Part shown: positions 34,607 to 61,489 of the stretch, piece after piece
Layout: every line of letters begins with the position of its first letter
Position numbering within the stretch: the stretch's first letter is position 1
Assembly (NCBI RefSeq): GCF_949628265.1
Contig: NC_088786.1
Span: forward strand, 24,573,681 to 24,637,680
Length of the DNA stretch: 64,000 bases
Source: Cloeon dipterum
Lineage: Eukaryota > Arthropoda > Insecta > Ephemeroptera > Baetidae
Reading direction: 5' to 3'
Position numbers and translations under genes: made by a program
Notes under the pieces: generated by a model
What the model was told of the DNA's origin: nothing
Databases searched by the model: none
What the model saw: only the letters and a program-made list of their open reading frames with translations

Positions 34607-36741
<2,135 letters not shown>

Positions 36742-37872
36742 CGCTATTTAAGAATTAAAAATGATAAAGAATAAAATGCAAGGTCTAAATTATTAAAAAG
36801 TCTAACCTACAGCCTTTGAAATTTCAGCTAGACAAACAAGTCAAACTTCAAAATACTGGTAAACAAACCGGAACCGTGTTTTCTTTAAGGTATTTTTGCT
36901 GTCAGAGCTATAGCAGTGCCAGTGCCGGCCAGAGCAAATTGTACATTCGTTAAAGAGCCGCTAGAGGGCAAAACGATGCGGCCCGGGTCGAATTCATATA
37001 TGACACGAAAAAATACAAAAAATTAAATGTTCTGCTCTTATTTGGTCATTAGTCAAATTATACACTTAGCAAAACACTTAAAACAACCTGACTGATTTCC
37101 TATCGAAATAAATTTTTATATATCAATTACATAAATGTTGTAAAAAAGGTCTCAAGAGTTAACGCAGATACATAGTGCCTCTTTTACTACATATAAATAA
37201 TATATTATTAAAGAAAGAGGAATTTTGAAGAAAAATTATACTGCAATTACATATTTATTATAATCTTTTACCTTTTTTGCAATTTAGGTCAAATTTTCAT
37301 AAAAAGAGATGAGACGAGTCGGATGAGTCAAATAAAAAAATTACATTCCTAAATATTTAACAATAATAAAACGGTTTAACATTTGTACGGTGCAAATAAC
37401 TTTAGTAAGCATTCACAATTCAAAAATTAGTATTGTAATGAAATTTGAATTCTGAGACTCGCTGCATTACATATTGCTTTAATAGGAAAAGTCCGGGGCA
37501 AGATAAAATTTAAAAAATGTCTTATTTCTCTGCCACAATAATGAAGTTATTTAGTTAATATTATTTAAACCAATGATTTTATCTTTTCATCGCAGCCCAA
37601 CAGGCACAATATTCAGCACACTGTATAATGGTCTTTCACATTGCAGAATTTTGGTGGGGGAAATTCTACTTCCTGTAAAATTATGGTCACATAAAATAAA
37701 ATTACATATAATATTGATGTGGGAGGGTAAAATTTCTCGTTTTTGAGGCAGATTCACGTTAATTACATTTGGCGTGCGCACGCTCCAGGAAGAGAGGACA
37801 CGCTCCACTGGCTTTTAAATTCTCTTAACTATAAGCAGAAAATAATATATATTATAGATTGCGCCACGTATC
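36742..37872. other. intergenic between NKAP and lectin gene A (divergent promoters)
   Basis: NKAP (minus) and lectin gene A (plus) are transcribed away from each other, so both promoters lie here. A GC-richer patch at about 36.9-37.0 kb is nearest NKAP. The rest is AT-rich with no recognised gene. Confidence 0.55.
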
Positions 37873-40800
37873 ATGAAATTGCAGCGCAATAACACATTTT
37901 TTTCTGTCATTTTCTTGGTTACAATTTTGGTTACAATTTCTAGAAATTGGTCTCAATTGAATACTAATTATAGCTGAAATTGCAGGTTTACAGTGATGCT
38001 TCCCCCAAAACAATCAAAGTAAAAAATGGGCTCGGAAAATTACCTAATTTTAAGGTTCAGAAGATCGTGATCATGAGAATTAAGCGTATTTATAATTCAA
38101 TTCTTTCGTTAATTTGGAAATCATTAAATTTTTATAGAAAGGAACTCAACTAGAATCCGGATCAAAAAATGCTGTGGACACTCCAAGTGTAGCGATAGCA
38201 CGACCGCACTACTCACAGATTCCCCTCTAAAAGTACATGTATAGTACATTTTGAGATTTAGTAATTGTTTTACACATTATCTACCTTTTTAGCCATCAGA
38301 AACGCAGATAGCACCGATATTAACTAAAATAACTACAGCAGAAAATATTGTCGAAAATCAGCCGTCAATATCAAATCCACAAACAGAGCAGACAAACACA
38401 ATGTCCGAAACTCCTGATCCTTTAACAACATCAGATTCGTTTTCAAATGACCTAATCCCGACGGCATCATCCTCAGTGTTTGAAAGAACAGTTACAACGC
38501 CCAAAGCTACCATATCAGAATTTACATCTAACAAGAGTCCTCTGTTGGATCCGACAAACCCAGGAGCAGCAACTGTAGATGTTCCATCGGTGACCAAAAC
38601 ACCAACAGATATTGGGAAAATTGCATCAGATGCTGCGACGTCAAGTGCACCGTTAATAACAACAGCATTGTCCACCAATGGTCTAACCATGGGTTCGTCT
38701 ACAATCGCAGCGGCACCGACCAACCCCGCAGCAACCACAATCGCCACCAAAGGAGCCACGGCCGCTGCTGGTACGACCACCACAGCAGCCGCAACCACCA
38801 CAGCAGCTGCAACCACCGCAGGTCCAACCACCTCTGCAGCAGTAGGAGCGCCCACGAAAACAGTCGCAGGGGCTACAACAACTACCGGAGCGGCCACCAC
38901 CACCGCTGGTGCGGCCACGAGCGCCGCGGGAGGTGCAACGACCGCTGACGGCGCGGCCACCACCACCGCTGGTGCGGCCACGAGCGCCGCGGGAGGTGCA
39001 ACGACTGCTGCCGGCGCGGCCACCACCACCGCTAATGCGGCCACGACAACAGCGATATTAACAACCACAGCCGCAAATAAACCTCTTTGCCCCCCTTACA
39101 ATTGTTCTTCTGCTGTGAGCAAATTAAAATGTCTTCAGAATGAAATTAGCGTGCAATTTATTAAATAGGGCTCTAGCCTTGGAGCGGATGGCAGAGTGAA
39201 AGGTTGCATGGCATCGTCAAAGAACAAATATATTAATAAACTTTAACTTTCCCCAAAAATAGACTCATCAGTTATTAATGGAACACTTAAAATATCTGGA
39301 GATCGACAGTACATGTTCAGCTCAATGGAAGTATATACAGGTTGCATGATTTTAATTTATTATGCTTTGAAAATTGTCTTTATCCAGAAAACTTGGACGG
39401 ATGCTGCCAGTGCTTGTTGTTCTCTGGGAATGAAATTGCTGAGTTTAGAAACAAAGGATGAATATGCAGCTATTTCAAAGATTGCAGACTGTATGGGAAA
39501 ATGTTTTAAGATATACGAAATATAATAATGCGAGCAACTTGTGTTTGTTACAACCAGTTAACAATGCATTAATCGGAGAATATTTCACATCTGGAAGCGA
39601 CCATAAAGTTGAAGGCTCGTTTGTATGGTGCTCATTGAATAATGTTTCAATCACAACTCCACTTTGGGGTGCTGGAGAGCCGAACGACTCAACGGGAACA
39701 GAAAATTGTGTTACCCTGACAGTTTCTGCGACTAACGCAACAATTGGTGACAGATCATGCACGACACCGATGAAATATATTTGCGAGGTTTTATACCGTA
39801 TTATCTTTGACGGAATGTTTAATTATATTAACCAATTATCAAAAGTTTCCGATCACGCCGAAAGCTGCCCTCTATTCTTGCCTAGCTGACGTGAGATGAA
39901 TTATATTTTATCAGGGGTGCCATAAATTGTCCTACTGTAAAGGATCCAAATAAGGACGAGCCCCACCTCTTGGCATTTTTCTTCCAATTTTGACGAAAAT
40001 TGGTGGAGGTGTTGCCCTAGTGGACCTATGACGCACCCTGAATTAATATTAAAAGTCGAAATGTTCAAAATTGACTATTTTTCAAGGGCTCAAATTTTTA
40101 CGATTTTTACAAAAGTCGACACAATCAGGCGTTTGTAACTCTCATTCTAGTTGAGATAAATTAAAAAATTGTAGACTAAAATTAAGTTCAAGACATGCTG
40201 AACACATTGCACACGTTTATGGCGTTGTAGGTCAAATGTCAAGGTCACAAAACTGTGCTGGAAAGTTGAAAAATCTCACCGTATATCGATTGATAAAAAA
40301 TTTGTTGAACTTTAAGTACACCATAATTCGCGTCATTTAACGTAGAAAAAATGGTGACTTTTCTCATTTTCAAAGTTGCAAATAAATGCGTGTGTTTTGG
40401 CTCTTCTGTGAGTAACGGCCGTAGCCAGGGTAGCCAGAAGTTTGACTGCATGTTTTAGAAAATTAATTATATAACAAATTGGCAAAAATTAAAGTAATAA
40501 AAGTTAAATTATTTGAAGCTAGATTTCTATTTTGTAGAATATACATATTTTTTATGAGTTTTAAGCACAACCTCCCAAGACATTGCAAACGGAGTTGGAC
40601 ACTCGGTAAAGGAAATTATCTATCTGTGCGCTGTGTGCGCCCATAGATATAGAGAACAGGACACTTTCTGAAGCCTCGTAGACCATCGTAGGGCACTTTC
40701 TGTAGAACACTTTGATGGCACCCATTTTAACATATACCCTAATAGCTTATTAAACTTTCATATTGTGTTCTTAGGCCAAGTTTTTAGGCGCTGACGGTCA

Positions 40801-41437
40801 AGTTAATGGTAATACATTTGGCTATGAACGTATTACTTTAAGTATTAACTTATAAAACATAACAATATTCCTAGTGGCTGCACCAAATCCTGACGGGAGC
40901 TTCCATACAATATGCAACAAGCTGTATTTTATTGGAAAAACAGCGGTAATTAAGGGAATAAATTTTAAAAATAAGATAACGGCAATTACGAATATCATTC
41001 TAGAAAAGTTGGGCTAACAGTGGCACTGAATGCTGCAAGAGGAAGATGATACTTGCTGCCATAGAGACAGACGCAGAACAAAAATGCATAACTACCTTCT
41101 TCAGTACTATAATTTACAAGTGCGGCTGTCATTTTAAATCCTTAATAATTATTTGATAGGCGGAACAGGTAAACAGCTGTACTCGGGAATCTTGTTGTGG
41201 AATGCAGGAACCGACCAAATACAGGAGGGAGTCTTCAATTGGTTCTATCCTGACACCAGTCTGGTGCCAGTCGTTGCTTCAAACGAGCTGCGGTGGGACG
41301 CACGTCAACCAGACAACTTTTTCGGCAAAGAGGACTGCATTCAATACATGGAGAAAGGCGGCTCTCCCCCGACAAATTTGGTCCTAAATGACGTAGATTG
41401 TTCAATCAGCTTGAGATACATTTGTGAAAAACCATAG
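37873..41437 (+). CDS. secreted mucin-C-type lectin, gene A (two CTLDs)
   Basis: Predicted secreted lectin of 678 aa. Exons: 37873-37929, 37986-38085, 38138-38232, 38293-39114, 39169-39202, 39263-39330, 39388-39490, 39558-39787, 39846-39890, 40775-40808, 40875-40945, 41004-41103, 41160-41437. Signal peptide 1-19; a RNSTRIRIKKCCGHSKC motif shared with B and C; mucin region 85-358, nearly all Thr/Ala/Ser/Pro with a 63-bp repeat; CTLD1 359-503 (ACCSLGMKLLSLET, EPN, ENC, YICE); linker; CTLD2 519-678 (ECCKRKM, QPDN, YICE) ending at a stop where gene C has a donor and continues. The donor of exon 1 (GTTACA) and the 45-nt linker exon are the weakest calls. A ~0.9 kb intron (39891-40774) holds a possible transposon. 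EPN and QPD predict mannose-type and galactose-type binding respectively. No membrane anchor is seen. Function is unknown; glycan recognition is inferred. Confidence 0.85.
38890..39055 (+). repeat. 63-bp coding minisatellite in the gene A mucin exon
   Basis: Units start at 38890, 38953 and 39016, exactly 63 bp apart and nearly identical, coding for a 21-residue Ala/Thr/Gly-rich repeat. The repeat is much richer in GCC/ACC codons than the rest of the gene. Confidence 0.9.
39914..40723. mobile_element. possible ~0.8 kb element with terminal inverted repeats in a gene A intron
   Basis: The left end (39914 onward) and the reverse complement of the right end (up to 40723) both begin GGGTGCCAT followed by similar ~12 bp ending in TCTAC or CCTAC. 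The intron is ~15 times longer than its neighbours, and the matching intron in gene C is only 50 bp. No coding sequence and no clear target duplication seen. Confidence 0.4.
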
Positions 41438-42793
41438 AAGCCACTTAAGTAATTTACTCATTTCAAACAGCACCCCTCTTAATAGCGAGAAGGTGAGTGT
41501 TGTTACTGACAATGAGTCGGTTAAAGTGCCGACTCGATTCCTATTTTCATAAAATTAGAGTATTGACTATAGCGAGCTACATGATTTTACCCTTTACCAA
41601 AAATATAAAATGTTGATTCAAATCATAATTAAATATTAAATTTTATTTAAAAAAATTATATTATTGCTCTCATCCGTCTGATCTGTGGTGGAAGAACGCG
41701 GTTTGTGGCCTGGACCAGTTGAAAATTTGTTGAATAAATCAAAAGTGCACCTCAGTAAAAAAAAATCCAAGCGTTTTGTTCCAGTAAAATGTCCATACCA
41801 ATATACAAAGTGGTTGGGGCTAATATTTTCTGCATTTTCATGGGTCATTCATTTTTTAGAAGTGTCCTTTATGTTATGAAACGCACTTATTTATTTATTA
41901 GATCATAGTGTTTTATTATTCGAAAATTAATCGAGTTCCTTGCCGTAAAATATGAATTTAATTAGACACTAGGCTATGCAACCTGCAATGCTGAATAAAT
42001 TCGCAGGTTGCCTATCTATAGATTCCTGCTAATATCTCCCTGCAAAATATAAAATAATGATATTTCGCGCATAAAAAATTAGCGATCATGCTGAAAAAAC
42101 ATTGTATAACTGTTCTAGAGGTTTGAATACAACTGTATTTAAATATCATTTCATCAGCAAAGTCCTGACCACGATTTGGCATCATTTTAAGCACGCACTG
42201 GATTAAATGTTGTTTAAAATTTACAATAATGATATATTTTATGACTACGCCTGAAATATAACTAACAGGGTTTAAAATTTTAATGCTGATGTTCTGCTTT
42301 CCAACATTTGCTACTTAAACTTTGAAACTTAAAATATTATACTTTGGATGTGCCATACGAATAGTGAAAATTGCAGAGAACGACGCACAATTTCAGTACC
42401 TCATACAGCAAGGGAAATTCAGTTTCCTGTGAAACGATGGTGATGGTTATGATTTATTATATCGTTAACATTTTCTACATTAAATTATATTCAGTTTATA
42501 ATTGCCAAAAATTGAAATTTACCATTGAATCAGGGCTTGGCCTTTTGGGAAAGGTCTCGGTCAAGTAGCTTATCAGATATGTGTGCCTTTTTCTCGCGTT
42601 TCACGTTGATAAATTAAAAACTAATTGTGAAAGTGAGCATTCAGTTTTTCAGTTTATAAATTTCTACGAAAGGACAATGCGCATGAGTTCTAGCTAGAGA
42701 GGAAACGATTTTTACTGGAATTGTGAAACCAACTGACGTTGATAGAGACGCATTCTGCTGTCCATTGGCCATGATTGTGACACAGTTGTTGCA
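41438..42793. other. intergenic between lectin genes A and B
   Basis: AT-rich. I looked for remains of CTLD3-5 following gene A's truncated end and saw none. Holds the 3' flank of A and promoter of B. Confidence 0.55.
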
Positions 42794-45700
42794 ATGAAAT
42801 TGCTACGCTGCTCTTCTCTAGTTACTCTCGCCATTGTGATTAAAATTTTAGTAGCCATGTCATTTTAATCTATTTTTTAAAGAACTCAAATTTAAATTCT
42901 GTTTCAGACAAACACCAATGAAGCCGTCTCTAAAACAATCAAAATAAGGAATGGGAAACAAATCAATATGAACATTGGAAAAATTCTAGTCATCAAAGCC
43001 AAACGTGTCTGATCAATCTGGTTTAAGATAATATTAATTAATTAATATTTATGTAGGAAGAAACACAACAAGAATTCGCATAAAAAAATGCTGTGGATAT
43101 TCTAAGTGTGGCATTAGCACATCTGATCTACTAACGGATGCCACTACGAAAATTTACGTAACTATTTTACCATCAAAAATCTCTTGGCTCATATATTTTT
43201 AATCTCTTAATTTTCAGTCGTCGAATTTAAATAATGGTCCCACTGATGCCGCAATTAACACTGCCAAAATTAAACCAGGCACAAATCAGAAGTCTACAGT
43301 GGACGAGCCCTCACAAACAGTCATCCAAGATCAGCCAAATACAATATCTGACTTACCAGACTCCTTGTCATCACTAGATCAATTACCAAATGATATAACT
43401 TCGGAAAAATCATCGGCAAGTAACGTTGAAATAGTCGGATCAACGTCTCAAAACGCTCCAGTTGAACCATCAACGCAAAATTCCGTGCCCATTCAGTCCC
43501 CTACGTCAAATACATTAAATCCAGAATCACCTGCCGCAAGCTCTGATGCAACTTTGGCGGGCCCCATTGCTAGTATTGCTGGAAATCAACCCACTACTGT
43601 AACGATCAGCAACACAGCTCAACACACTTCTACTCCTACTCCATCGCAAATTATCTCAGGAACAACTGCAAGATCAAATATCTTAACAACAAACACTGCG
43701 TTTTCCCCAACACAGAGCATAGCATTAACCACTACAAGCATTAAAGGCGCAGCAACAACTGCTGCTTCTAGTCAGTTGTCAACTACGACAAATGCAAAAA
43801 GTGTATCAACGTCTTCTGGTGTCGCTACTACAACTAATTCTCAAACGCAAAATGTGCTGTCGACCACGAAGGGTCCTTCAACTACCGCTGCTGTTGCTAC
43901 TGCAGTAATAATGTTCAACAAAATATCATTAATAATTAACAACGACAAATTAAAAGGGCGCATCTTCAACTGCCGCCGCCACCACCACTGCTAGTACTCA
44001 AACAACAAGTATTGATTTATTAAACCTCTCTATGTTTCAAAGACCCCATTCCTTAAATTATTAGAAGCAGTCCCATTCCCCGACTGTCCAGCTGTTGCGT
44101 GTCAACAAGAGGTAACGTCATTTTTGTGGTATAATTATAGTTGATGTAATGTTTATTTTTCTAAAACATCTGCAGCCGGCGAAAGTAAGCGAATCACAGC
44201 TCTGGAAACGTAATCAATCAACTAAGAAGCTAAAAATTTGAAATAAAATATTTAAACTAGCATCTACAAATGGAGATTTCTACAGTGGATGTAGCAAACA
44301 ATATTTTATCAGCAAGGCTGCAGTAGGGAAATTTCAAGTCTTGAAAATTGGAATATGCGTTAAAAATAATTTAAATTCAGAAAAAACGAGACGATGCGAT
44401 GATTGAGTGCTGTAAATACGGTCTGCAACTGCTGAGCATCGACTCATTTGATGAAATCGCTTGCATAATCGACTTCAACTCAGGTAGGCCGAATCCATGA
44501 CGAATTTTCGATAGTTTTAATAAAATTATTTCGTCAATATAATTACAAATATAAAGTAAACGATTATTTGTTTGGAAATTTATAGTGTGTATAGTTTTCA
44601 GTTGAATTTAGAAGCAGCATCCTTGGTGTGTAGCGAGTTGTTTCCCGAAAATAGTTAAGCAGGGCGTTTCTCTTGAATTATATAGAGAAAAATAAAACGG
44701 CGGTAAAAACAGCTTACTCACCAAGGAAACTACTCCTAATTTCAACTGAATATTACTGAAAATTTTGACGGTCTCGAGCGGTGCATCTGCCGTTGTTGGC
44801 ATACACCAACGATATTTTGTAAATATTTTTATTAATTTTGAATTAAATGTTACCAGCTGAGGCCAAGGAATCTGGACAATTCTGGACATCGGGATCCAAT
44901 CTTGGTGATTTGACCCAAAATACACCTGGTTGGTGCACAACAAAAACATTCTTGCCCAGCACCAGTGTGTGGTTCAAGGGCCAGCCTAATAACCCCAGCA
45001 CGGAGAGATGCATTTCCTTTCAAATGTCCAACACTGCAGTTGGAACAGATTATGGTTGTCACGATAATACATGCACCAACCTATATCGATTTATTTGCGA
45101 GGTTCTTTTTAATTTTTCCCTTTCATTTAAAAATTTTAATATTTAAAACTCTATGAAGGGAGATGTCTCAGTATGCAACGTGACGTGCCCAAGAAACTGT
45201 CCATCTAAATTAGACGTATGTTTTATCATATGTAGAAAGACAAATAAATTGAAGACTTCACCAACATTAATTTTTACAGAAGAAACTTTTCAATTCAAAA
45301 AATCAGCTAATGGGTGAGCCTATTCAAATCTTTCTCTTAATTTAACTTGATAGCAATAACAAAATAAAAAGCAAATAAAATAAGAGAGCGTTGAGGAATA
45401 ATTAAATAAATTGAGGAAAAGTTACCGTTATGTTTAAATCCAAAAGATTTAATAAAAAATGAGTATTTTTCAGGTATTTCTGGATTTTTAAAAACTCAAA
45501 ATGCAGGATAATACTCTGTCTATAGTTGAGAAATAGAAATGAAATTTTCGAAAGCATGTGTAACTTTTTACGCATAACAACTTGCTCGAGAAATATTATT
45601 TTAGATCAAAGGTTAAGGTCATTAATTTCAGGTCAAAATTAAATATATACCAAAAATTTGCCCCCCGTAACGCATATTATCTTGTACAAAAAGTGTTACT

Positions 45701-47105
45701 CATGTTTAATACCCGACTACAACAAAAAATTCCAATAGATTCCAATTCTTACGGCAGATGGATCACGGGTTGTGGCAGTACTTATTTATTTTCTAACACT
45801 AGGAAGGTAAAGCTTTTAATTGATTTACAAGATAGTGCTTTTAATTGAAATCAGTTTGGTTGGACTGGCTCATATGACTTCTGCTGCAGTATGGGAATGA
45901 GCATGGTAAAGTTTGAAACCCATGAAGAATTTAAATGCCTCTTTGACCTTAATAAAAACGAAGGTAATGCTTTCACATATGTGCCTTTTGAAGTGTGTTG
46001 AAATTGAATTTAAAAGTTTCATTAAAATTTAATGGGGATTTTTGGACATCTGCAAGCCAACTTGATTGCGCGTATAAATTTGAATGGTGTGACAGTGGAG
46101 TTCGACTTTACAGAAACGACACTAGATGGTTTGTTCGGTCCAAATTAAATTGAACTCTAAACGCTAAAAGAATAATTAAAGGTGGCCTGGAGCCGGCGGC
46201 CAACCTAATAATTTAGGGGGAGCTCAAGCTTGCACTTTTTTGCACTTCCAGCCCGGAGTACTTCCAACAGATGGATATTTAAATGATTGGGATTGTGCGG
46301 CTCTGTATGATTTCATTTGCGAGGTTCGCATATAATTTAAATTGAAAAATTGCGCCTGCATGTTTTAACATTTTTAGATGCCAGCAATAACAAACCCAAC
46401 CACGGTCACTTGCAATGATGTTTTACCATGCTCGACTGACGTAACAGCATATGAACGAATCTCTTGTAGCAAAGTAATTAACATGATAAATTCCTAACAG
46501 GCAACTTATGCACAGCAGCTCCAAACAATGACATGTAATTTTTCAACTTGCAACTTTTTAGACTTTTAATATATGAATTTACAGCCAAGACCGGAAAGTT
46601 TTTTGAGGCTTGCAGCAGGACATATTTCTTTAGCACAAACACTGTAATTTGAAACAATTTAAGTTGCGTTTAATGATAATGAAACATCAACAACAGCTAA
46701 CCTATGACGCGGCTATTACTGAATGCTGCAAATACGGTTTGCGGCTGGTCAGTTTTGAAACTTTGGCCGAATTCCAGTGCGTTTTGGATTTGAATAACGG
46801 TGATTATTTTCGTGTATGAGCCTCAATAATTAATGTATCCTGACGTATTTTTAGCAAACATGAAGTACGCTGCAACATTTTGGACGTCAGGGACTAACGA
46901 TGGCATAGGCATGGAAAACTCATGGGGTTGGTGCCCTTCGGGAAAATTGCTTGAAAGCGGATTTTCTTGGAAAACAGGAGAGCCGAATAATATTTACACG
47001 GAAAACTGTCTTGCGTTATCAACTGCAATTGGTGATTACAGTTTGTCTAAAATCGCATCCACTAATTGCAAATTAGCATACCGATACATTTGTGAAGCTG
47101 CCTAA
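42794..47105 (+). CDS. secreted mucin-C-type lectin, gene B (three CTLDs, equivalents of CTLD3-5)
   Basis: Predicted secreted protein of 833 aa. Exons: 42794-42835, 42908-43004, 43057-43157, 43218-43904, 43957-44008, 44065-44111, 44176-44209, 44261-44322, 44381-44483, 44857-45101, 45159-45215, 45280-45313, 45739-45806, 45855-45963, 46017-46128, 46182-46323, 46378-46440, 46501-46534, 46585-46643, 46697-46799, 46855-47105. Signal peptide MKLLRCSSLVTLAI; RNTTRIRIKKCCG motif; mucin region 81-326, Thr/Ser/Pro-rich without a tight tandem repeat and split by a 52-bp intron. CTLDs at 343-490, 510-664 and 686-833 carry QPN, QPN and EPN at the sugar-binding position. They match gene C CTLD3, 4 and 5 in sequence, linker and exon lengths. 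The linker before the first CTLD (VPFPDCPAVACQQE) equals the one that follows CTLD2 in gene C. AATAAA at 47108-47113 nearly overlaps the stop. Confidence 0.87.
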
Positions 47106-48305
47106 TTAATAAAACACTTATCACAAATAATGTTACATTACATTGATCAGGAAGCATGATGATATAAGGATCAAATAAATAAATTATTTGAGCACAATTA
47201 AACTCTCGTGTGAGTCGTCAACATCTTAACCCTTTTCAACAAATCACTGAATACAATTATTTCAAATTCAATTTTAATTTGAAAAGTAACCAGATGCACC
47301 AGGTTAGTTTCAAATCCGCGATGAGTGGAGATTTATTTATTTTCTCTCGTTCCAAAAATTTTCTTACTTGCGTATTTATTACAATTTTTATCCGATCATA
47401 TGAATTTCTTGGCTAACGTATAGTATCTATGGACGCGTTATCAGCAATATTTTAAACTAAGTGGCATATATCTTTTTTCCGAAATATCACCGTCCCAAAG
47501 GATATTTCAGTAAATCATCGAGTCAAAAATTTTGAATGCTCTATCAGATTTTAGGGTTTTCTGAAAAACAAAAAATTGGCCATGTTTTGGAATCTGTATT
47601 AAAGATATCTAGTTAAACAAATCCTCTTTTAAATAAATTTTTGTGCCAAACAATCAAGCCGTTGGCTCACATTGTTGATTGTTGAGTGCTTGCTTCGAGT
47701 GCACTTGCTATGTGAGAATCTGAGCGATATTTGGGGTCGAGTGCGGGCTGATATTATACACCTGTGGGTGCGCCCACCGCCCACTGCGCCCTCAATTGGG
47801 TGCGCCAGACAAGCTGAGAGCCACGTCGATGATTTTTAAAGAAATGGAGCTAACAGGACGAATTCAAAGATCAAAGAACGCCTGGTCGTCGGCACTTCAC
47901 ACCTATGATTGCCTCTCAGCCATTCGAATTTGGGAGGATTGTAAAAGCTTTCCGACTCGCTCCTTGCTAGGTAGCACCTTACTAGTATTCGCTAATTAAT
48001 TTCTCGGAGACTTAAATTTGCAATTAAAAGTACCATTATAACAACACCGTTACACCGAAACCCTATTTCGTGAAGGAAAAATTTGCTAAAAATCGTCTTA
48101 ATCAAAGGCAACTTTCCCGTTAAAAATCGCTCCCTTCCGACGAAAACAGTTCAAAATTTCCAACCAATTAATTTCACCAAGGGAAAAGGAAACGCAGGCA
48201 GTCAATTGACGCAGAAACGAACCGTCATTCGTTCTGTGCTTTGATTTTTGCATGGAAAATCCCATTTCCACTCCTATAACGACTCGTTGTTAGTTGCTCA
48301 TTGGA
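47106..48305. other. intergenic between lectin genes B and C
   Basis: AT-rich apart from a short GC-rich patch near 47.75-47.95 kb that matches no gene or RNA I recognise. Just upstream of gene C, TATAAC (48275) lies ~25 bp before TCATTG (48298), a possible TATA/initiator pair. Confidence 0.5.
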
Positions 48306-51300
48306 ATGGAGGTGCTGCGCTTCGTTGCGATCACTCTTGCTCTTGTAATTTAAGTTAAGTTTCGTTTGCATAAAACCTTATGCTTATTTGTGAATAATTT
48401 AGGGAACCATCGATGCAGACGCCTCAAATGTGATCAAATTACATAATGGATTTCTGCAACCGAATAGAATATATAAAATAGGAATCGTCACTGCAAAAAG
48501 TATCTAATTTGTGATATACTGACTTCAACAGATTATTTCAATATTGAACAGAGAGAAATGCGACAAGAATTCACATAAAAAAATGTTGTGGAATTAAAAA
48601 GTGCAAAGGCGGAACAACCGTTTTGGTGGGGTCTACTTCTAGACTGCAAGTAAGTTATATCAAACCCAAATATTGTGTGGGTTTACACGCTATATAATTA
48701 TTTTATGATTATTATAGACTCCAGTGACGACCAAAAACCTTGCCACAACTACAGTTAGCGCCCATGGAAGTTCACCTGATAGTGCTCAGCCGCCATTACA
48801 GGAAGATACCTCTGTTGAAACACAGCCGTCAATCAAATCAGAGACATTGTCTCTAACAGGCTCAACAGCCATTTTATCAACGGACACGACAACAGGCGAA
48901 ATCACGTTTTCAACCACTGCTACTTCAACTGAACTATTTGCAAGTGCATCTGCGTCTGCATCTACAAGTTCTCAGGAATCTACAACAGTTTCTGGAACAT
49001 CAACAATTACACCTGCTGCAACAATTAGTTTAGCTGCCACAACAACCACACTAGCTGCTACTACCGTTATGACCACAGCAGCTACAACAACCACAACAGT
49101 TACGACAACCACAGCAGCTACAACAACCACAACAGTTACGACAACCACAGCAGCTACAACAACCACAACAGTTACAACAACCACAACTCCAGCTCCTCTA
49201 TGCCTACCTTACACTTGCACCTCCGTTAGTATTGAAAATAAATGTCAAAACAAAAAATCTCATTGGAGCAACAGAATTTTAGCCTGGGAACCGATGGAAG
49301 AGTGAAAGGTTACATATTTCGATAGAACTAATTAAATGTTGTTCATAAAATTTTAACGCGTTAAAATAGCCTCGTCAGTTTTGGATGGTATTCTCAAAGA
49401 ATCTGGTAACCGACAGTATATGTTCAGCACAAGTCAAGTATTTAATATGGAGCATTGTTAATTACATTACTCCTACTTATCCGTTGGTGTCAATGATTTC
49501 TCACAGAAATCGTGGACCGACGCCGGCAGCGCGTGTTGCTCACTTGGAATGATGCTACTGAGCTTAGAAACAACGGAAGAATATATTCAAATTTCTAAAA
49601 TTGTGAAGTGTAAAAAAAGAACTCCTTCTTGTTTTAATCGTAACTAAATTTTCGTCCCACCCACGCAGTTAGCACGGAGCTAGTTGGAGAATATTTCACA
49701 TCCGGGAGTGATAATAAAGTGGAAAACTCATTTGTGTGGTGCTCATCCAACAACACGGCTGTCACGTCTCCATCATGGGGCGCTAGTGAACCAAGCGATA
49801 AAACAGGAAGTGAAAATTGTGTTACTGTGACCGTGACAGCTAGCCAAAACGCAACTATTGGGGACAGGTCATGCACGACACCCATGAAATATATTTGCGA
49901 GGTTTATATTTTCTTCACAAAATAATTTCACCAAGTTTAATCTGATATTCTCGTGGCAATAGCTGCCAATCGTACCGAAAACTAGTTCCTGCTTAGCTTA
50001 CCCCTGCGAAACCGATGTGAGATATATGTATGTTTTTTTAACATCATTAAAACTATACGTATTTAGCCAAGGTACATAGGCAGCGATGGGGAAGTAAATG
50101 GTAAATCATGGTTGATTTCGGATTCCATATATCTAGGGTTTAATTAAATTCCAAACATTAAAGTTACTGCAGCTAATCCTGGTGGAGATTTCTTGGCAAT
50201 CTGTGGGAGGATTTATTTTATAGGGCAAGCCGGGGTAACACTAACGATTTTTTCATTCATATATATTTAAAGGTGATTTGAATTTGTTTTGAAGCAAAAT
50301 TGGTCCAATAGTGGCGTGGAATGCTGCAAGAGGAAAATGACGTTTGCTGCTATCGAAACTGACGCAGAACAAGCTTGCATAACAAAATATTTTAGCAGTT
50401 ACTTATATTAATTTACATTAAAACATATTTTCAAATTTTTCTACTGAAAAAGGTATTTACGGAAGACCATTTGCTGGGCTCAATGCGTGGGTTGCAGGAA
50501 CTGACTTATTCCATGAAGGAATTTTCACATGGTGTTACGCCGACAATACTGAGGAGAACGTCACGTTTTCAAATATTTTGAGGTGGAGATTCAATCAACC
50601 AGACAATTTTGGAAACAATGAAAACTGCATGCATTACATGAATGATGGAGGATTGCCACCAACAAATATGGTCTTCAATGATGAAAATTGTGCCGGCAGC
50701 AAAAGATTCATTTGCGAGGTATATATTTGTAAATTTGATCTTAACAGTTTTATCTAATTTAATAAAATAGACAGCATTGGCCACAATTCCATTTCCTGAG
50801 TGTCCAAGCATTACTTGTCAGCAGGAAGTAAACATGCGTTAATTAATAAAATTTTCCATCTTAAATGTAAGTTGTGATAGCCTCCAAAAGTGAACGCGTC
50901 AGTGTATTGGAAATGTAAAAATCGGCAAAAATAGTGATTTTTTTTATGTTCAAACTTTTAAAATTAGCAACATCGGATGGTGACTTTTACAACGGGTGTG
51001 GCAAACAGTATTTTGTCAGCAAATCTTCTGTAAGGATAAAATTTGGTAATATAATCTGGTTAACCACCATTGTGATCTCATTGTCAGAAAACTCGAGATG
51101 CTGCGATGGCCGAGTGCTGCAAATACGGTCTGAAACTGCTGAGCATTGAATCAGACGAAGAAATCGCTTGCATAGCTGACTTTAATGCAGGTTAGTTTTT
51201 GTGTTTATCAATCATATTACGTTACTATACATATTTATACATGAGTTTAAATATAAACCCAAAAAGCAATCCCTAGGCTGCTCTTACAAATGTCATGCCT

Positions 51301-53472
51301 TTAACAAACTCGTACACCTGTAGAATAAATTTGATAAATTTGCATGCTATATATTTAAATTTATTGCTCTCATGATTTATTTGTCGAAAAGAAAAAGTAT
51401 CACTGATAAGTAACATGAACAATGGCAAAAAAAATATAAGCAGAAACTGCATGGAGGCGCAAATCAAAACATTGAGTGGACTAAGTAATTTAAGTTGCAA
51501 TATATAAATTCAAAAAATTATTAGCTGAGGCCAAGGCTAGTGGGCAGTATTGGACATCAGGCTCTACCCTGGGACCTCTGACAATAAGCACTCCTGGCTG
51601 GTGCACAACCCAGAAGTTTTTGTACAACACCAGTGCGTTTTACACAGGGCAGCCTGACAACCCTAGCACGGAAAGGTGTATTGCCTTCCAACTTAGCAAC
51701 ACGGCGCTACTATCAGGCTATGGCATACACGACGTGTCCTGCAGCGCACAATATAATTTCATCTGCGAGGTCTCGCTTTTCGCTGAAAATAAATTCCCAA
51801 AACCTCACTTTTATAATTATAAAGGGAGACGTTCCACCCTGCGAAGCGACGTGCCCAGGAAACTGCGCCAGTAAACTCAACGTGAGTCCGTCGCTTATTG
51901 TTTAGATCATAAAATCATTATCATTTTAGCAAGCCCTTTTTAATTCTAAAAATGAGCTTGTTGGTGAGATAAAATAACTTTTGCAATGTTGAGCATTTGT
52001 TAATGATTTTATTTTTTTAGACACAAACTCGTATGGGCGTTGGGTCACTGGATGTGGAGGCAGGACATATTTATTTTCACCTGACTCAAAGGCAATACCC
52101 AAATGATTATTTCTTGCATTTCCCCTTAATTAAAAATTGCAATTAGAGCTGGGACCAAGCTTACGATATTTGCTGTAAAATTGGAATGACTCTCCTAAAA
52201 TTGGAAACTGTTGAAGAATTCAATTGCTTTTACGAACTTAACAAAAATAACAGTATTAAAAACAAATTCAGAATTTTAAAAACGGTGACTAACAAAGAAA
52301 CAGGTTACTTGATGTATGCAGCTGATTTTTGGACAGGAGCAAATGACAGAGACTGCTTATACCGGTTCAAATGGTGCGACACTGGAGAAGTACTGTACAG
52401 GAATGACTCAAGATGGTGCTGAACCAGTCAAAAGACATCAAATTTTATCCAATAAATATCAATTTCGTGATTTTGCAATGCAGGCTATTAAATCAACCAA
52501 ATAACGCGGCTGGAATCCAAGCATGTGTTGTGATGAGTTTGTCTCCTACTGTGACTTTCAGCACGAAGTCTTTGAACGACTGGGATTGTAGCTCAAACTA
52601 CAGATATGTTTGCGAGGTATAATAACAATATTGGTAACACGTCACATTATTTTATTATTGTTTTGGCGTAGATGCCTGCTTTGCCAGTACCAACAGGAGT
52701 TGTGTGTGCCGAATATCCATGCGCAACTCAAGTAAATACAAAATTTTCACATAGAGATTATTTTATCTGAGAAATATATTTTTCAGGCCGCGCAAGTATC
52801 AGAATATCAAAGCATGAGCTGTAAGCAGCATATAGTTCAAACGCGAGCAATAATGTTTCGTGCTAATTCAATTATTGATATTACAGCCACAGCAGGCGTA
52901 TTTAAGACAGCTTGTGGAAGGAAATATTTCTTTAGCAAGAACACTGTAAAAACATTTTGCTGAATCTAAATTTGGAAATTCCATTAATTGTTCTTGACGC
53001 AGCTTTCAAATGACCTAGCTTTGACCGAGTGTTGCAAATACGGCATGCGGTTGTTGAGCATAGAGACTGTAGCAGAACAGAACTGCCTCGTGGACCTCAA
53101 TAATGGTTTTTGCAACATACGTACTTTCGCGCTCCTGACTTAACAGTGTATTTTCACGACCAGCGGATATGAAATATTCTTCTATTTCATTCTGGACGTC
53201 GGCAGTCAATGACGGAATTGGACGTACATATACTTATGGTTGGTGCCCCTCGGGAACATTTGTTGACGCTGGACTTTTCTGGGGATCAGGGCAGCCCGAT
53301 AATGTTTTCACAGAAAATTGCGTGACTATTGTGTTTTCCACCATTTCTGGATATTCACAAAACGTCCTTCATTCCTCAACATGCAGCACTGGTTACAGAT
53401 ACATATGTGAAGTAAGAATTGAAATCTGCGGCAAACGATTTAAATTGATTTACTAATTTTCAGGAGCAATAA
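48306..53472 (+). CDS. secreted mucin-C-type lectin, gene C (five CTLDs)
   Basis: Thirty coding exons, 1077 aa: 48306-48344, 48403-48499, 48552-48649, 48718-49224, 49275-49308, 49370-49437, 49507-49609, 49669-49901, 49963-50016, 50067-50100, 50164-50234, 50295-50397, 50453-50718, 50771-50827, 50881-50914, 50968-51029, 51088-51190, 51525-51769, 51825-51881, 51930-51963, 52021-52091, 52147-52252, 52304-52415, 52484-52616, 52672-52731, 52787-52820, 52887-52945, 53003-53105, 53164-53411, 53464-53472. Signal peptide MEVLRFVAITLAL; RNATRIHIKKCCG motif; mucin region 79-247; CTLDs at 248-393, 412-569, 589-736, 756-907, 928-1075, each with CC in the first half and an ICE/VCE end, joined by short Pro/Cys linkers. 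Sugar-site tripeptides: EPS, QPD, QPD, QPN, QPD. The intron at 52092 begins GC rather than GT. The last exon (Glu-Gln-stop) could be skipped by read-through to a stop near 53455. No membrane anchor. Glycan recognition is inferred. Confidence 0.87.
49071..49186 (+). repeat. 36-bp coding minisatellite in the gene C mucin exon
   Basis: Three near-perfect 36-bp units code for a 12-residue Thr-rich repeat with single Val and Ala-Ala. Base composition (ACA/ACC) and unit length differ from the 63-bp repeat of gene A, so the two arose separately. Confidence 0.88.
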
Positions 53473-53848: not shown

Positions 53849-54536
53849 ATGAAGCAGCTCCGGACGATTCTTCATATTCTTCTTTGCTCTTCTCTTGCTG
53901 TCTCGCTGGCGAATCCTGTAAATAAAGGTACAAAAACCACACCCTTTAAGCGCTTCACAAAACAAAAAATTGATAGAATTATAATGTTCAAATTTCCCCG
54001 TAGATGGGTTAGTGACTTTAAAGAGCGGCAAAGTAGTGTCAAGAAACATCGTTGGGGTAAGTTTCCAGACTCATTATCAGGTTTCTTAAAACAAATCAAT
54101 ATTTCAGCCAGCATCTTGGTATGACGCAGTCAAGGATTGTAAAAGTCAAGGGTTTGAATTGCTGACGATTGAAACTGAGCAAGAATGGACCGATATTCTC
54201 GACTACTTTGGTAAAAAAAATTTGACCCTAAATTTTGATTTGATCTTGCTCAATGAATCTTTATCAGGGCCGGACATCACGAACAGAATTTGGATCGGAG
54301 GCACTGATCTCGGAAACGAGTTGAATTTCTATTGGATCTCCTCGGGTGCTCCATTTGAAATCTCTTCGTGGCACGCGGGTGAACCTTCAGGAAACAACCC
54401 TACCAACGGTATCAAAGAGGATTGTGTACACATTTGGAACAAAACTGGCATTCTGGCCATGAACGACGCTCCTTGCGAACTTGTCTACCCGTACATGTGC
54501 GAATTTTACGACATTTGCGCTCGACGCCTTTATTAA
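53849..54536 (+). CDS. secreted single-domain C-type lectin, gene D
   Basis: Typical small insect C-type lectin, 167 aa. Exons 53849-53927, 54004-54056, 54108-54210, 54268-54536. Signal peptide MKQLRTILHILLCSSLAVSLA; then LVTLKSGKVVSRNIV, the usual strand before the lectin fold; SWYDAVKDCKSQGFELLTIE; WIGGTDLGNELNFYW; EPS at the sugar site; EDCVHIW; NDAPC; YMCEF. The last intron (54211-54267, 57 nt) has no in-frame stop, so retention would insert 19 residues; I call it an intron because it falls at the phase-1 position used by all ten CTLDs upstream and leaves a 103-nt exon like theirs. It lacks the mucin region, the IKKCC motif and the 34-nt exon of A-C, so it is a more distant relative. It lies 376 bp after gene C with its own promoter. 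Confidence 0.85.
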
Positions 54537-55714: not shown

Positions 55715-58700
55715 CTATTGCTGATGAGCGAGAGTTGGAGGCAGAGGTGGCTTGTGCGCCGAATTAGGACTGTGGGGACTTGTTAGCGGTGACGTGTTTG
55801 ACCAGTAAGGGTGACCTTCTGCAAATTAATTAATTTTTCATTTATCTCCATCGCAGTAAAATTTTTATCTTATCAAAAATTTCGTTCCTTCACGTCTCAA
55901 TTGAATTTCTAGACACTTCAGTTGTCAAAACATTATTGATATTTTTTAATTGCACTTTGCCATTGATTCATATAACGCACAATTAATCTTACCCGGTCTA
56001 TCTAGCGAATTAGAAATATTTGGCTGTTTTCTCCTGGGAGCTCTGTCACGCCTTTGTCGGCCACTGCTGTAGTTCGAATCCGAACTATATGGCGAGGTCG
56101 GCCTTTTGTGCGGACGCTCGAACCTCCTTTGCTGCTGGCGCCCAGCATGCTGACAGATCTAAAATCGAATCAATTGAGTACAATTGTTCGCACAATCATA
56201 TTTTCCAGCTCACCTTTGTCATTGCTTGTTCTTCATAGGCGCCGTCAGCATCGCTGCATGAGCAGCAGTTACCGTTTACGTGGTCATCCTCTTCACTGGT
56301 CTGAGCGCTGCTGTATCCCTGTCCTGGTTCTCCCGCAACACTGTACTCTGCCTCACTGTAGTCAGCTAGAATCATATCACACTATTTTAAAAAATTCGTG
56401 CAGCAATATCAGCTTAAAGACGCAAACAAAACAAAAACAAAAAATGTTGAATTTCAGTGGCATTGATGCATACCAATTTCAGGCACAATGTTGCGCCTGT
56501 TGCTTCCGAGCAGACGAGCTGACTCTCCGGTCAAACTGGGAAGCGAAGACTGGATTCCCCGGTCAGTCAAGCCAAGCTCATCATAAGGAACTCCAGGTGG
56601 TGGCTGGGTGGGTGCCGGGAATCGGGACTCGCTGGACATGCTATTCCAGTTCATGTGGAGCCTCCGGTTTGGAAGTGGACTTGTGCCTTTTTTCAACGCC
56701 TGCAACGACTATAAAATCACAGGAATTAGTGGCAAACTTCGAGCAATATTGATCTTTATAACGCTTCAAAATACCACTTAGAAAAAAACATCATTTATTA
56801 ATAATGGAAATACATGGTTAAATATATAAAGAAAATAATTTTTATAAAAATAAAAATTTCTAGCTAAATATTCACCTGGAGGAGTCTGGCACTTGCGGGG
56901 GTTTCTGGTCGGTCATTCATTCCCAGTGGGGGCGGTTCTTCCTGAGGGGGAGGAGGAATGAAATCCGACCAGCTTGGACCCATTGGGCCGTTGTTTAGAA
57001 TTGACATCTTGTTTCGTATACTTGGTGGCTTTTTGTGACGCTGCAGCAAACCACCGTCCTCTATAGATTGAACATTAATTAAATATAAAAACTTAAAATA
57101 TCGCCGTCTTGTGCTAACCAATATAAAGATTGGACTGATGCTCATGTGAACCCATGCTGCAGTTGTCCTGTCGAGGACATGAGTCATTTGAGCTGGAAGT
57201 TTTTGGATCACTGGCAGAAGAGCTTGGCACACCGCAAAACATTTGTTCGTCCTAAAATTTTGTGTTTCAAAATACTTTTCAAAATTATAAATAAATTTCT
57301 TTTGCTTACCATTGAAGTGTCTCTGCGTGCTGAACCAATGAGGGTTGTGGTTGCATATGGTCCAGGCAATTGGGGTGGCTCCCTCCTTCCAAAGGTAGAA
57401 AGCCCCCTAGGATCAACTTCCGCATAATCAGAACCAGCGTTGGAGCCAGAGAGGAGATTTTGTGTGCCGGGAGTGTTCCTGTCCTGGGCGCCCCAACCGC
57501 GATCAATCCACAAAGGAGCTTGTTTTGTGTTTCCCATGTCTAGGGAAGTCAATTCCATCGCTTTGACCACAGGAACTGCTGGGAATTGAAGGTTAGAATC
57601 CATCATAGTTATTTTAAAAACAAAAACAAGGACGAAATCAAACATGAATGAGATGCTGACATAAGAAGAAATTAAACTTTTGGACTAACCACTTTGATGG
57701 CCGAGCTGCTTTTTGCTGGAGTGATGTTTTCGGACGTAGTAAAGCACGGCACCCATCACGAGCAGAACAAGAGAAACCAGGGCAGCAAAGAGCACATGCC
57801 AATTGTGATGCAGAAGTGGATTTCCCGACTCTCCTGCATTCTGAAGGTTCGAGTCGCTCAGGTGCAGAGAGGCTGGGTCCATGGTGAGGAGGATTGGGGG
57901 TGAGTAGGGGCCCATTCCTGCTCTGTTGTATGCAACCACTCGCACAGCATAGGAAACGCCTGTCGTCAAATTGTTCAGGCGCACGGTCAGGGTGGTCGCG
58001 TTCAGGGTCATCTGGGCAAGAACCCTGCTGCTGTTCGCGCTTTTAACTTGAATCTATAAAGAAAGGAAAAAATTAACCAACTGATTTTTTCGAGAAACCC
58101 AAATATATTTTTATATTTTATGAAATTAATCGTACCTTGTAGCCTTGTAGGATACCTTTGTGATGCTGTGGTGGTGGCGGACTCCACTTGACGAAAGCTG
58201 ATGTATTATTTATCATTCCCACAAGCACATTTTCAGGCGCCGCCGATGGCACTGTGGATAAAACAAGGCATTTGCATTGCGCAAACAAAGAATAAGAAAG
58301 CACTCACAATCCTCGGTTGTCTGGACGGTACGCGAATTGGAGGGTTGGCCCTCAACAGTCTTGTAGAAGGGCACTAGGAAGAACTCATATGTTGTGAATT
58401 CTTTCAGCTGACGCACCACATAGCTCACAGCTCCTGAATTAAGAACTGTGGCCATGGCGTAATTTTGAGAACCACTCGAGACGTCCCTGAAGCGGACGTA
58501 AAAACCCTCTACATACTGCTCTTCTGAGAGTATCTGTAAAAATAAACTTATGTTTAGCATAAAAAGTTTTTTCTTTTCCGTCTACCTTACCTCCCAAACC
58601 AGTCTAACCGACGTGGAACTCGCAGGCTGAGCATCCTTCAGCTCGACAATTTTTGAGCTGAGCCTCTGCCTCACGTCTTGCAAATCAAATTCCACGCCGT

Positions 58701-61489
58701 TGTTCCCTCTCCTCGCTAAGGTAATAATTTTCTCCGACAATGTGCTGGGTGGTGACAGCCCGTGCGAGTTCTCAGCCCTCACTATGAAAATGTAGCTGGT
58801 GTTGGGCTTGAGCTGCGTGATCTTAATACTGCTGCCAGTGACGCGGTGAGCAGCAACGCTCCATCCACTTTGCAGCTCACTGCTGAAAACCTCCACGGTG
58901 AAGCCAACGAGTTGCGAAGCGCCAGGTGAGCTTGCCCTCCAGGAAAGCAGCACGGACGTGTCTGTTACGTTAGACACGAAAGGCTTGCTTGGCGCTCCGG
59001 GAAAGGCGTCTGGATCTGGCATGCGATGGATGTGCTTGTGATCCTGAGGCACCACGATCAGGGAAGCTGCCCACGTTGACTCGCCACTCTCAGAGTAAGC
59101 GGTGCAGGTGAACAGTCCCGTGTCGCTCATCTGCAGTTCTGTAGAATGGGAAATTTGTTAAAATCATAAAAAAGTAATACTTGACGTAAACTGGAAATAG
59201 TTATGCAATTTCATCACAGCTGGCTTGCGCTGGTTGCATAACTAACTCCAGTGCGAAGTAACAATCTGCATAACGTCCCAGTGGCTGTGAAATTGCGCAT
59301 CGCTCAACAAGCACCGTCAAATTGATTCTTGCATCTTTTCTCGCAACAAGAAAAATTGAGTTTTGTTGTCGAGATGCGCGCAATTTCAACACAACCAGGA
59401 CGAATAATTTATTTATGTTTCTTAGTTTATCATCTACTATGATAACACGGCCAGTTTTTTTATATCACTTACCATCAATAATAAGAGTGCCTTTATCACT
59501 GACAGACACCCTTCCAGTCTTATCCAAATTCAGGTTGACCCCGTCTTTGCTCCATCTGACCTTTGGCTCCGAATCTCCAGACACTGAGCACGGAAGCACG
59601 GCTTTTGTATTAACAGGGAGCGTTTGGTTTGATGGTCCGATTTGGATCAAAGGCGGGGGGTTGTCGTCCACAGAGGTCACCTCCAGAAGGGCTTTAGCGA
59701 TTTTGGAGCCAGCGACGCTCAAAGCCGAGCAAATGTAGTAGCCGGAATCGCCCCGTCGAGCCCCCCTGACCACAAGTTCGCCCGCCGAGCTGACGTGCAG
59801 ACGCCCGTAGTCGTGCCCGGGGAACATCAGCACCTAAACACGCAAAGTAAACAGTCAGCATAAGTGCCTTTAATCTCTCTGACACCCAGTGGCAAACTTC
59901 ATGACGGCTTTCCGTGAGTCAATCGGGGGAAAACCGTCAACATTAATTAATCGAAATCCCTGTCAGGCTAAACGTGCCAGTGTCAAGCAAATGAAATCGA
60001 GGTTCGGGTAAAGCGAGTTTTCAAGCGGTCATACATTACCTGACTATTGCCCTCCTTGCTCCAGAAAACCGAAGGCGGTGGCTGTCCGTGAGCTGAGCAA
60101 GTGAATGTTGTCACACCATTGACAGCTACTTTGCGGTCATCAGGCCTGACAATGAAATCAGGCGGCGCTACAACAAAGTCAACGTTTCGCATTACTTACG
60201 GTTCAAGGCATAGACACCACTAACTTGAAACCACTTTTTAGAGAGTAATAAAAATGCGTTTTTTTTTAATAATCAGAGTACACTTCTTGTTTTGTAGATG
60301 TAAATCTACTCGCTTTATAAAAGCAACTCACAGTGCACGGTGAGATGGGCCTGAGCTGTAATCGATCCAACAACATTTTCTGCATTGCAAATGTACAGTC
60401 CGTCGTCTCCGGGTTGCAGGTCTTCAATGCGTAGTGACTTATCTTCTAAAATATGCGCTCTGCCGTGCGGCATTTTCCCGTCTGCCCTGCTCCACAGGAT
60501 TTTGGGCACCGGGTCACCGTCAACCCGGCAGCTGAACTCGGCGCTCAATCCCTGCAGTTCAGTCACATCTTTTGGTGCCTTTATGATGTAAGGTTTGACT
60601 GAAAAAACGAGAAACGAGTAGAAATTTAGAGACGCCTGAAACCGAGGAGAAAATTCAAAGTGGATGAGCGGAATTTCAACTCACCGTGAACTGAGAGAAC
60701 GGCGGCCTTAGAGCTGCGGTGCCCGACGACATTTGTGGCCACGCACTGGTAGCTACCCTCGTCACTTTGTCGCGCATCGTTTATCAGCAAATTTCCTCCA
60801 TCCACAATGCGAATTCTGCAGAATATGGAAAAATGTGAGCGTGGAAAGCGAAAGGCAGAAAAGTATGGAAGTATGTTAACATGTTTTTTATCTGTCTACT
60901 CCAGCTGGAGGTCTTTGAAAGTAAACCGAGAAGAGTTCTATCTGATTAATAATATTTTCTGCATCATTGATAGTGGTTTTTGTGTAATTTTTCTGTTAGA
61001 TACCAAAAGTAAAATGCCGGTATCACAGTATTTAAAATAGTCATAGCTCGACAGTATTTTAACATTTACTCGACTTAAACCACGGGCGATGAAAAGATAA
61101 TTACAAGTTGTTCTAGGAAAATTAAAAAATATCTGAGAATATTTCAAATACACACCACTAAATAATGTTCACTTTTTATTGTATTTTTCAGTTTTTGATT
61201 TTATTTTTATTTTAAACGACTATGTAGGCTGTCGGGCAACTGTGCCACTGTCCAATCTACTTTAATAAAAAATTGTCTGATAATAATCATGATGTTTTAA
61301 TTTTAACGTTGCACATTGATTGAAATTGAACTTACCTTCTAGTATTTTCGGTGTCGATGGGGCGGTTGTCTTTCAGCCAACTGATGGTGGGCTCCGGGTG
61401 ACCTTTGGGGCCACCGCACTCGAGCAGGGCCGGTTCGCCCTGGGCCACGCTGGTGCCTTTCGGTTCCACTCTGAACTCGTCGCGCAACA
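55715..61489 (-). CDS. robo1: Roundabout (Robo1-type) axon-guidance receptor, 3' part (Ig2 to stop)
   Basis: Slit receptor of the neuronal plasma membrane. Exons: 61336-61489, 60685-60815, 60332-60598, 60040-60167, 59473-59833, 58591-59138, 58308-58533, 58136-58251, 57690-58053, 57310-57575, 57119-57251, 56876-57060, 56474-56708, 56214-56365, 55993-56158, 55715-55818; 1178 residues here. Ig2 starts [20 protein letters not shown]; Ig3, Ig4 and Ig5 follow with both cysteines each; three FN3 domains (for example [44 protein letters not shown]); one membrane helix at 57733-57795. The tail has CC0-like SDYAEVD, CC1 PYATTTLIG and CC2 [15 protein letters not shown] (Ena-binding type), plus a proline-rich end (HKPPLPP) that may stand for CC3. 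CC2 marks it as Robo1 rather than the Robo2/3 type that lost it in Drosophila. Ig1 and the signal peptide lie beyond the window. The donor at 55992 (GGGTAAG) avoids a nearby intronic stop. Confidence 0.96.
57733..57795 (-). other. transmembrane helix of Robo
   Basis: About 21 hydrophobic residues ([20 protein letters not shown]) followed by VRKHH, placing the downstream residues in the cytoplasm. Confidence 0.9.
59200..59406. mobile_element. foldback/MITE-like inverted repeats in a robo intron
   Basis: Inside intron 59139-59472. Arms at 59271-59312 and 59360-59406 are inverted and share CGTCC and GAAATTGCGC blocks with the 32791-32943 element. A further inverted partial arm lies at 59200-59240, so this looks like a nested or composite copy. 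Confidence 0.5.

Follow-up and report, generated by a model that had tools for sequence, protein, structure and literature searches.

Ordered tandem arrays of C-type lectin-like domains (CTLDs) are carried by the vertebrate mannose-receptor family (LY75/DEC-205, PLA2R and MRC1/2), whose members combine the array with a Cys-rich/FN2 head and a membrane anchor. Lineage-specific expansions of lectins are common in insects but seldom reveal how, and in which direction, domains were gained or lost. Insect C-type lectins are divided into CTL-S, immulectin (IML) and CTL-X classes according to the number of CTLDs and the presence of further domains, with one CTLD and other conserved domains in CTL-X and two CTLDs in immulectins (PMC7379682; PMC9954269). 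Proteins with two or three CTLDs are noted for Lepidoptera (PMC7379682), and the immulectin group is described as having undergone duplication and merging (PMC9954269). Here we analyze three adjacent mucin-lectin genes, A, B and C, in a 64,000-nucleotide window on contig NC_088786.1 of Cloeon dipterum (Ephemeroptera), part of a 190-Mb assembly. The CTLDs of A correspond to positions 1 and 2 of C and those of B to positions 3, 4 and 5, and sequence comparison makes it probable that A and B are complementary reductions of an older five-CTLD gene, the full layout of which is kept by C.

Membership of the CTLD superfamily is clear for all three proteins (PF00059 scores of 70.7, 46.8 and 113.3 bits for A, B and C against a curated cut-off of 22.6), and a Pfam scan found no family besides Lectin_C at its cut-off. 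They resemble the insect classes in being insect CTLD proteins, but differ in having up to five CTLDs as a family (six in the paralogues K1 and K3 introduced below), a mucin region, a front exon with an IxKCC motif and a Cys-Cys pair in every CTLD examined. With two, three and five CTLDs and no other Pfam domain, A, B and C fall outside the CTL-X description; A has two CTLDs, as immulectins do, but these are positions 1 and 2 of a five-CTLD family and follow a mucin region, as placed in a tree built without immulectins. In a PDB profile search LY75 ranked first (7jpt, expect value (E) 3.2e-22), through the CTLD only. Unlike the mannose-receptor family, A, B and C lack any strongly hydrophobic segment beyond residue 30, and no fn2 or ricin-type match was found in them at E ≤ 1 in Pfam. 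Mosquito mosGCTL-1 (9t9z), the third distinct PDB profile sequence (E 2.3e-20), is likewise an arthropod CTLD, but its 151-residue chain, with one matched stretch, is too short for a mucin or an array. The nearest solved structures by profile, LY75, a mosquito GCTL and PLA2R, were all reached via the CTLD alone. No described mucin-type five-CTLD insect family was found in the literature, of which coverage was partial. The initial annotation of this stretch knew of no described family with this architecture, a statement that calls for a change of wording, as the genes belong to a multi-gene family in this genome.

Exon models of A, B and C were assembled manually on the basis of splice sites and reading phase. 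All three genes lie on the plus strand, open from ATG to stop and in phase, and together they occupy a block bounded by the ATG of A at 37873 and the end of the stop codon of C at 53472, which are precisely the limits given in the initial annotation. Their introns are GT-AG with one exception, a GC-AG intron in C (donor after 52091). A purpose-written spliced aligner queried with the C CTLD protein alone re-found base for base seven of the nine aligned A exons and 14 of the 16 aligned B exons; the four that it missed were the terminal exons of the two alignments. That A and C, or B and C, might be two haplotypes or an assembly copy was rejected because their DNA identity is too low (67–87% across aligned pieces, 67–71% in the longer ones, with the longest A-C match at 67%).

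The one-to-one correspondence of the ten CTLDs is evident from identities, trees, linkers and exon structure. Cognate CTLDs are 72% (A1-C1), 54% (A2-C2), 66% (B3-C3), 54% (B4-C4) and 54% (B5-C5) identical, as compared with 27–44% for non-cognate pairs among the three genes. A tree of the ten CTLDs forms all five pairs, four of them with starred support (A1-C1 100/99, A2-C2 100/100, B3-C3 97/95, B4-C4 98/96) and the fifth, B5-C5, with 81/92, and the same pairs recur in a tree of 35 CTLDs (100/99 for A1-C1, 100/100 for A2-C2 and for B3-C3, 73/83 for B4-C4, 95/91 for B5-C5). The linkers agree too, as in 'PFPDCPAVACQQE' of B and 'PFPECPSITCQQE' of C. From exon 1m/3l on, 15 of the 25 exons common to C and either A or B are of equal length and 24 differ by zero or a multiple of three, and the micro-exon ahead of each CTLD measures 34 nucleotides in ten of ten cases. 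The initial annotation had proposed both this matching of domains and the agreement in exon length, and each is borne out; CTLDs failing to pair one-to-one with those of C, which it had named as the contrary outcome, were not found in either tree. Nonsynonymous divergence (dN) by the NG86 method is 0.18–0.37 against a synonymous divergence (dS) of 1.4–1.6 in the three of five pairs for which it was computable, which suggests purifying selection; synonymous sites are near saturation, and several dS estimates failed or ran off.

The direction of change can be read from paralogues elsewhere in the genome. DNA beyond the window was read in twenty 10-kb stretches around CTLD matches, in two pairs of stretches flanking the K cluster, at the M and N loci (two stretches) and at short loci, which together cover a minority of the listed CTLD matches, and all family counts are lower bounds. 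One of the twenty stretches held CTLDs and linkers of the A/B/C type and gave a cluster of three genes, K1–K3; two further genes, M and N, lie on other contigs (Table 1). An IxKCC-type front is matched in K1 (E 2.9e-8), K3 (E 0.002), M and N, and an open stretch between front and CTLD1 is rich in Ser and Thr in K1, K2 and K3 (38%, 58% and 37%) and in Ser, Thr and Pro in M and N. Together with A, B and C these five genes, K2 with a weak front match, form a family defined by an IxKCC front, a mucin region and ordered CTLDs with a Cys-Cys pair.

In trees of 25 and of 35 CTLDs each of positions 1 to 6 occupies one side of a branch, with support in the larger tree of 98/94 for position 1, 92/88 for position 2, 96/93 for position 3 and 100/99 for position 6. 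Five label changes account for the six positions, which is the minimum and was not reached in any of 200 shuffles, and within each position group A or B pairs with C. Forcing CTLD1 of C to join K1_1 and K3_1 apart from A1 was rejected (approximately unbiased test, p-AU 0.0006; the clades for the forced topologies of this domain, K2_1 and K2_5 were named after the tree had been seen). As K1, K3, M and N share the order 1 to 5 and the position groups, the five-CTLD array predates the divergence of A, B and C. A supermatrix tree without K2 joins A to C before B (83/84); because A and B share no columns, it is silent on the relation between these two.

The same evidence bears on whether C is instead a fusion of an A-like with a B-like gene, the second of the two origins that the initial annotation had left open. 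The gene order A-B-C with its matching domain order would suit such a joining, and joins do seem to happen in the family (M/N-type CTLD1 with K1-type CTLD5-6 in K2). However, K1, K3, M and N already show the order 1-2-3-4-5, and within every position group C clusters with A and B. The joined state therefore antedates C, and a joining would have had to restore the old order after the relatives possessed it. We therefore regard this origin as highly improbable, whereas the other, a five-CTLD ancestor with complementary loss, is supported.

In C all five linker-plus-CTLD blocks begin and finish at phase-0 introns, so blocks could be dropped or joined without a break of frame, and this arrangement is likely to have been the enabling feature for CTLD losses and joins. 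Gene A ends two residues (KP) past CTLD2, at the point where C has a splice donor, and the exon expected to splice onward reaches a stop codon instead. The intron between exons 2l and 2m is 884 bp in A against 50 bp in C; in A it holds a degenerate dispersed repeat (39900–40760) that partially matches 27 other places in the genome. Gene B begins 1.36 kb further on, on the same strand. Its mucin is divided over two exons where A and C have one mucin exon each, and its exon 3l starts in phase 1 (47 nucleotides) where the C counterpart starts in phase 0 (57 nucleotides). The partitioning described as clean in the initial annotation is accordingly so at the level of domains, but not at the B junction, which has been rebuilt off the phase-0 boundary. 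The front end that it held to be common to the three genes is similarly present in each as signal exon, exon 2, IKKCC exon and mucin, but the likeness is weak (42–49% amino-acid identity over signal, exon 2 and IKKCC exons), with the mucin of B spread over two exons. By composition, Thr and Ser make up 35%, 37% and 52% of the mucin exons of A, B and C, and a genome search with exon 2 and the IKKCC exon of B gave four matches, in A, B and C only.

A separate tree of the front exons, as the initial annotation had proposed, places A and B as sisters in the IKKCC exon (85/95 in a 6-row set and 96/91 in a 10-row set). Local DNA alignment scores from signal to IKKCC exon run in the same order (A-B 83, B-C 53, A-C 31), and the A-B match extends 15 bases into the upstream intron. 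Sisterhood of the A and B fronts is favoured by these comparisons, short of proof. A 30-bp element that starts GGGAAATTC lies upstream of both A and B (37658–37687 and 42412–42441); a match of this quality was equalled in one of 300 shuffles, which makes it a candidate shared promoter and a lead only, and its first bases presumably resemble an NF-kB-type site. No shared upstream promoter sequence was found for A-C or B-C (123 and 50 of 300 shuffles as high).

The A-B front sisterhood fits a five-CTLD copy split by a second front end, and the stop after CTLD2 in A, taken together with the divided mucin and the phase-1 exon 3l of B, makes front-end insertion the simplest reading. A five-CTLD copy would have stood beside C; a duplicated front end (promoter, signal, IKKCC and mucin) would have landed between its CTLD2 and CTLD3; A would then terminate at a new stop codon and B start from the new front. 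This is the likeliest single history, although the case for such an insertion, and with it for a true animal gene fission, is evenly poised. No firmer, and no weaker, is its corollary that the locus would hold two independently controlled genes with their unsplit sister C beside them.

The main rival shares the same core and differs only in the last genetic step: three full five-CTLD tandem copies, followed by independent deletions that removed CTLD3-5 from A and CTLD1-2 from B. It would leave the identical final pattern; a short layout is known in the family (1, 5, 6 in K2, though K2 is probably a chimera), and the B junction lies off the canonical boundary, as the end of an imprecise deletion would. 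Against this, it asks for one more duplication and two deletions in place of one front-end duplication, and neither the A-B spacer nor the B junction holds a CTLD remnant; outside annotated exons no remnant was found anywhere between 37 and 54 kb of the window (328 matches at E ≤ 10 on both strands, best E 0.07). Neither point is decisive, and we retain separate deletions as a possible, somewhat less probable course. That A and B are one gene, with a long transcript that skips the end of A and the front of B to give five CTLDs, the short forms being alternatives, would suit two genes on one strand, so close together and with complementary domains, but the CTLD2 exon of A ends in a stop without the donor that C has, and B owns signal, IKKCC and mucin exons; this we consider very unlikely.

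Several observations weigh against the derivation of A and B from a five-CTLD gene by fission. Three full copies with complementary deletions leave the same pattern, and synonymous saturation means that the A-C and B-C divergences are not datable as one event. Positions 4 and 5 are weak as groups in the 35-CTLD tree (64/37 and 66/9), as is B4-C4 within it (73/83). Forcing the fronts of A and C or of B and C together gives p-AU 0.05 with 6 rows and 0.23 with 10, in an alignment of 36–37 columns, which makes for a short test. The K, M and N genes were modelled automatically by spliced alignment, with uncertain parts at exons 2m/2a of K1, 2l/2m and 5l/5m of N, 1b of M and the ends of K1_6, K2_6 and K3_6, and the front match of K2 taken alone is weak (E 0.17). 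On the functional side, the full sugar motif is present in four of ten CTLDs (see below), and the function of A, B and C is read from domain content.

The composition of K2 illustrates a further mode of change. Its CTLD1 is 80% identical to that of N and 77% to that of M as compared with 47% for K1 and 45% for K3, and its CTLD5 and CTLD6 are 71% and 77% identical to those of K1. Forcing K2_1 with K1_1/K3_1 (p-AU 0.0027) and K2_5 with M_5/N_5 (p-AU 0.0035) was rejected in both cases, and K2 is probably a chimera that combines a CTLD1 of the M/N type with CTLD5-6 of the K1 type. For its front, a short exon of 37 columns, p-AU is 0.32 when forced with M and N and 0.03 with K1 and K3. Downstream of K3, at about 17983788–17984162 on the minus strand of contig C1, lies a CTLD5-like stretch interrupted by in-frame stops; it may be a decayed copy, or the match may span an intron.

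Related genes with an IIKCC front were found at five loci (contig C3, 13.74–13.78 Mb, and contig C5, 13.17 Mb); judged from raw matches their layout is different, with about three CTLDs, and a Ser/Thr/Pro-rich stretch was flagged in three of the five. A front exon from these loci matches 19 places in the genome, the weaker matches (E up to 0.11) being uncertain, and 16 of the 19 lie at most 8 kb upstream of a CTLD match on the same strand, as counted by eye without a control. The mucin-lectin genes are on this count a large multi-gene family in the Cloeon dipterum genome. The CTLD repertoire as a whole is very large, with at least 106 matches to PF00059 at E ≤ 0.001 and at least 148 matches at E ≤ 0.01 to one CTLD1 exon, many of them in tandem clusters.

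As for function, A, B and C start with a hydrophobic stretch (Kyte-Doolittle, window 19, 1.4–1.7 at the N-terminus), and no membrane-like segment above 1.3 on the same scale was found after residue 30. They are most likely secreted, O-glycosylated, multivalent mucin-lectins, as predicted from these features. A Cys-Cys pair is present in all 35 CTLDs examined and a later aromatic-Cys in 34, the exception being A2, which likely form an extra disulphide. The Ca-site-2 sugar motif of CTLDs is EPN or QPD with a downstream ND. This motif with its ND occurs in A2, C2, B4 and C4 (as QPNN in B4 and C4); in a motif scan the other six have an EP/QP motif or variant and no ND. Projecting on its mucin stalk into a mucous, gut or haemolymph matrix, the CTLD array could bind microbial or host glycans, and a divided gene would allow separate expression of the 1-2 and 3-5 halves, which retain different sugar-site residues.

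Table 1. Positions of the mucin-lectin genes and their parts; coordinates are those of the window unless a contig is named.
Feature	Position	Strand	Content	Basis or remark
Gene A	37873..41437	+	13 exons, 678 aa, mucin-lectin, CTLD1-2	two Lectin_C stretches, E 2.1e-19
A front end	37873..38232	+	signal exon 37873-37929, exon 2 37986-38085, IKKCC exon 38138-38232	
A mucin exon	38293..39114	+	274 aa; 26% Thr, 22% Ala, 9% Ser	63-bp tandem repeat 38886-39046
A CTLD1	39263..39787	+	exons 1a-1c	pairs with C1
A CTLD2	40875..41437	+	exons 2a-2c, stop codon after ICEKP	pairs with C2; QPDN and LND kept
Gene B	42794..47105	+	21 exons, 838 aa, mucin-lectin, CTLD3-5	three Lectin_C stretches
B front end	42794..43157	+	signal exon 42794-42850, exon 2 42908-43004, IKKCC exon 43057-43157	nearest to A front
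B rebuilt junction	43218..44111	+	mucin exons 43218-43904 and 43957-44008; linker exon 3l 44065-44111	phase 1 start
B CTLD3	44261..45101	+		pairs with C3
B CTLD4	45739..46323	+		pairs with C4
B CTLD5	46585..47105	+		pairs with C5
Gene C	48306..53472	+	30 exons, 1077 aa, five-CTLD mucin-lectin, ancestral-like layout	five Lectin_C stretches, E 1.1e-32
C front end	48306..48649	+	signal exon 48306-48344, exon 2 48403-48499, IKKCC exon 48552-48649	
C mucin exon	48718..49224	+	169 aa; 38% Thr	36-bp tandem repeat 49072-49185
C CTLD1	49370..49901	+		gene model and 35-CTLD tree
C CTLD2	50164..50718	+	QPDN ... FND	gene model and 35-CTLD tree
C CTLD3	50968..51769	+		gene model and 35-CTLD tree
C CTLD4	52021..52616	+	GC-AG intron after exon 4a at 52091	gene model and 35-CTLD tree
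C CTLD5	52887..53411	+		gene model and 35-CTLD tree
K1-K3 cluster	contig C1:17986000-18010999 (~17.98-18.01 Mb)	-	three genes; K1 and K3 CTLD 1-2-3-4-5-6, K2 CTLD 1-5-6	
Gene M	contig C5:11.84 Mb		CTLD 1-2-3-4-5	located by search with part of B5
Gene N	contig C2:31.47 Mb		CTLD 1-2-3-4-5	located by search with part of B5

Within the window, C is closely followed on its own strand by a separate, putative single-CTLD gene (about 53849–54536; Lectin_C E 1.7e-10 for the main reading frame). It is 22–27% identical to the CTLDs of A, B and C in the matches found and is not a close member. On the minus strand, the interval 57000–61500 contains exons that encode Ig and fibronectin-III domains (three fragments scanned), which we take to belong probably to a Roundabout-like axon-guidance receptor, and a 283-residue Arg/Ser-rich reading frame lies at 35899–36747, with no Pfam match at E ≤ 0.01 in the 275 residues scanned.

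One genome here contains the split halves, their unsplit sister and four outgroup genes with ordered CTLDs, and this combination makes fission, block loss and chimera formation separable by sequence. Whether the phase-0 lectin blocks of the family have been repeatedly dropped (in A, B and K2) and recombined across loci (in K2), which would amount to germline lectin diversification, is a question on which we find the weight about equal on either side. With genes that carry CTLDs 1-2, 3-5, 1-5-6, 1 to 5 and 1 to 6, the family offers a natural set for the role of each lectin position.

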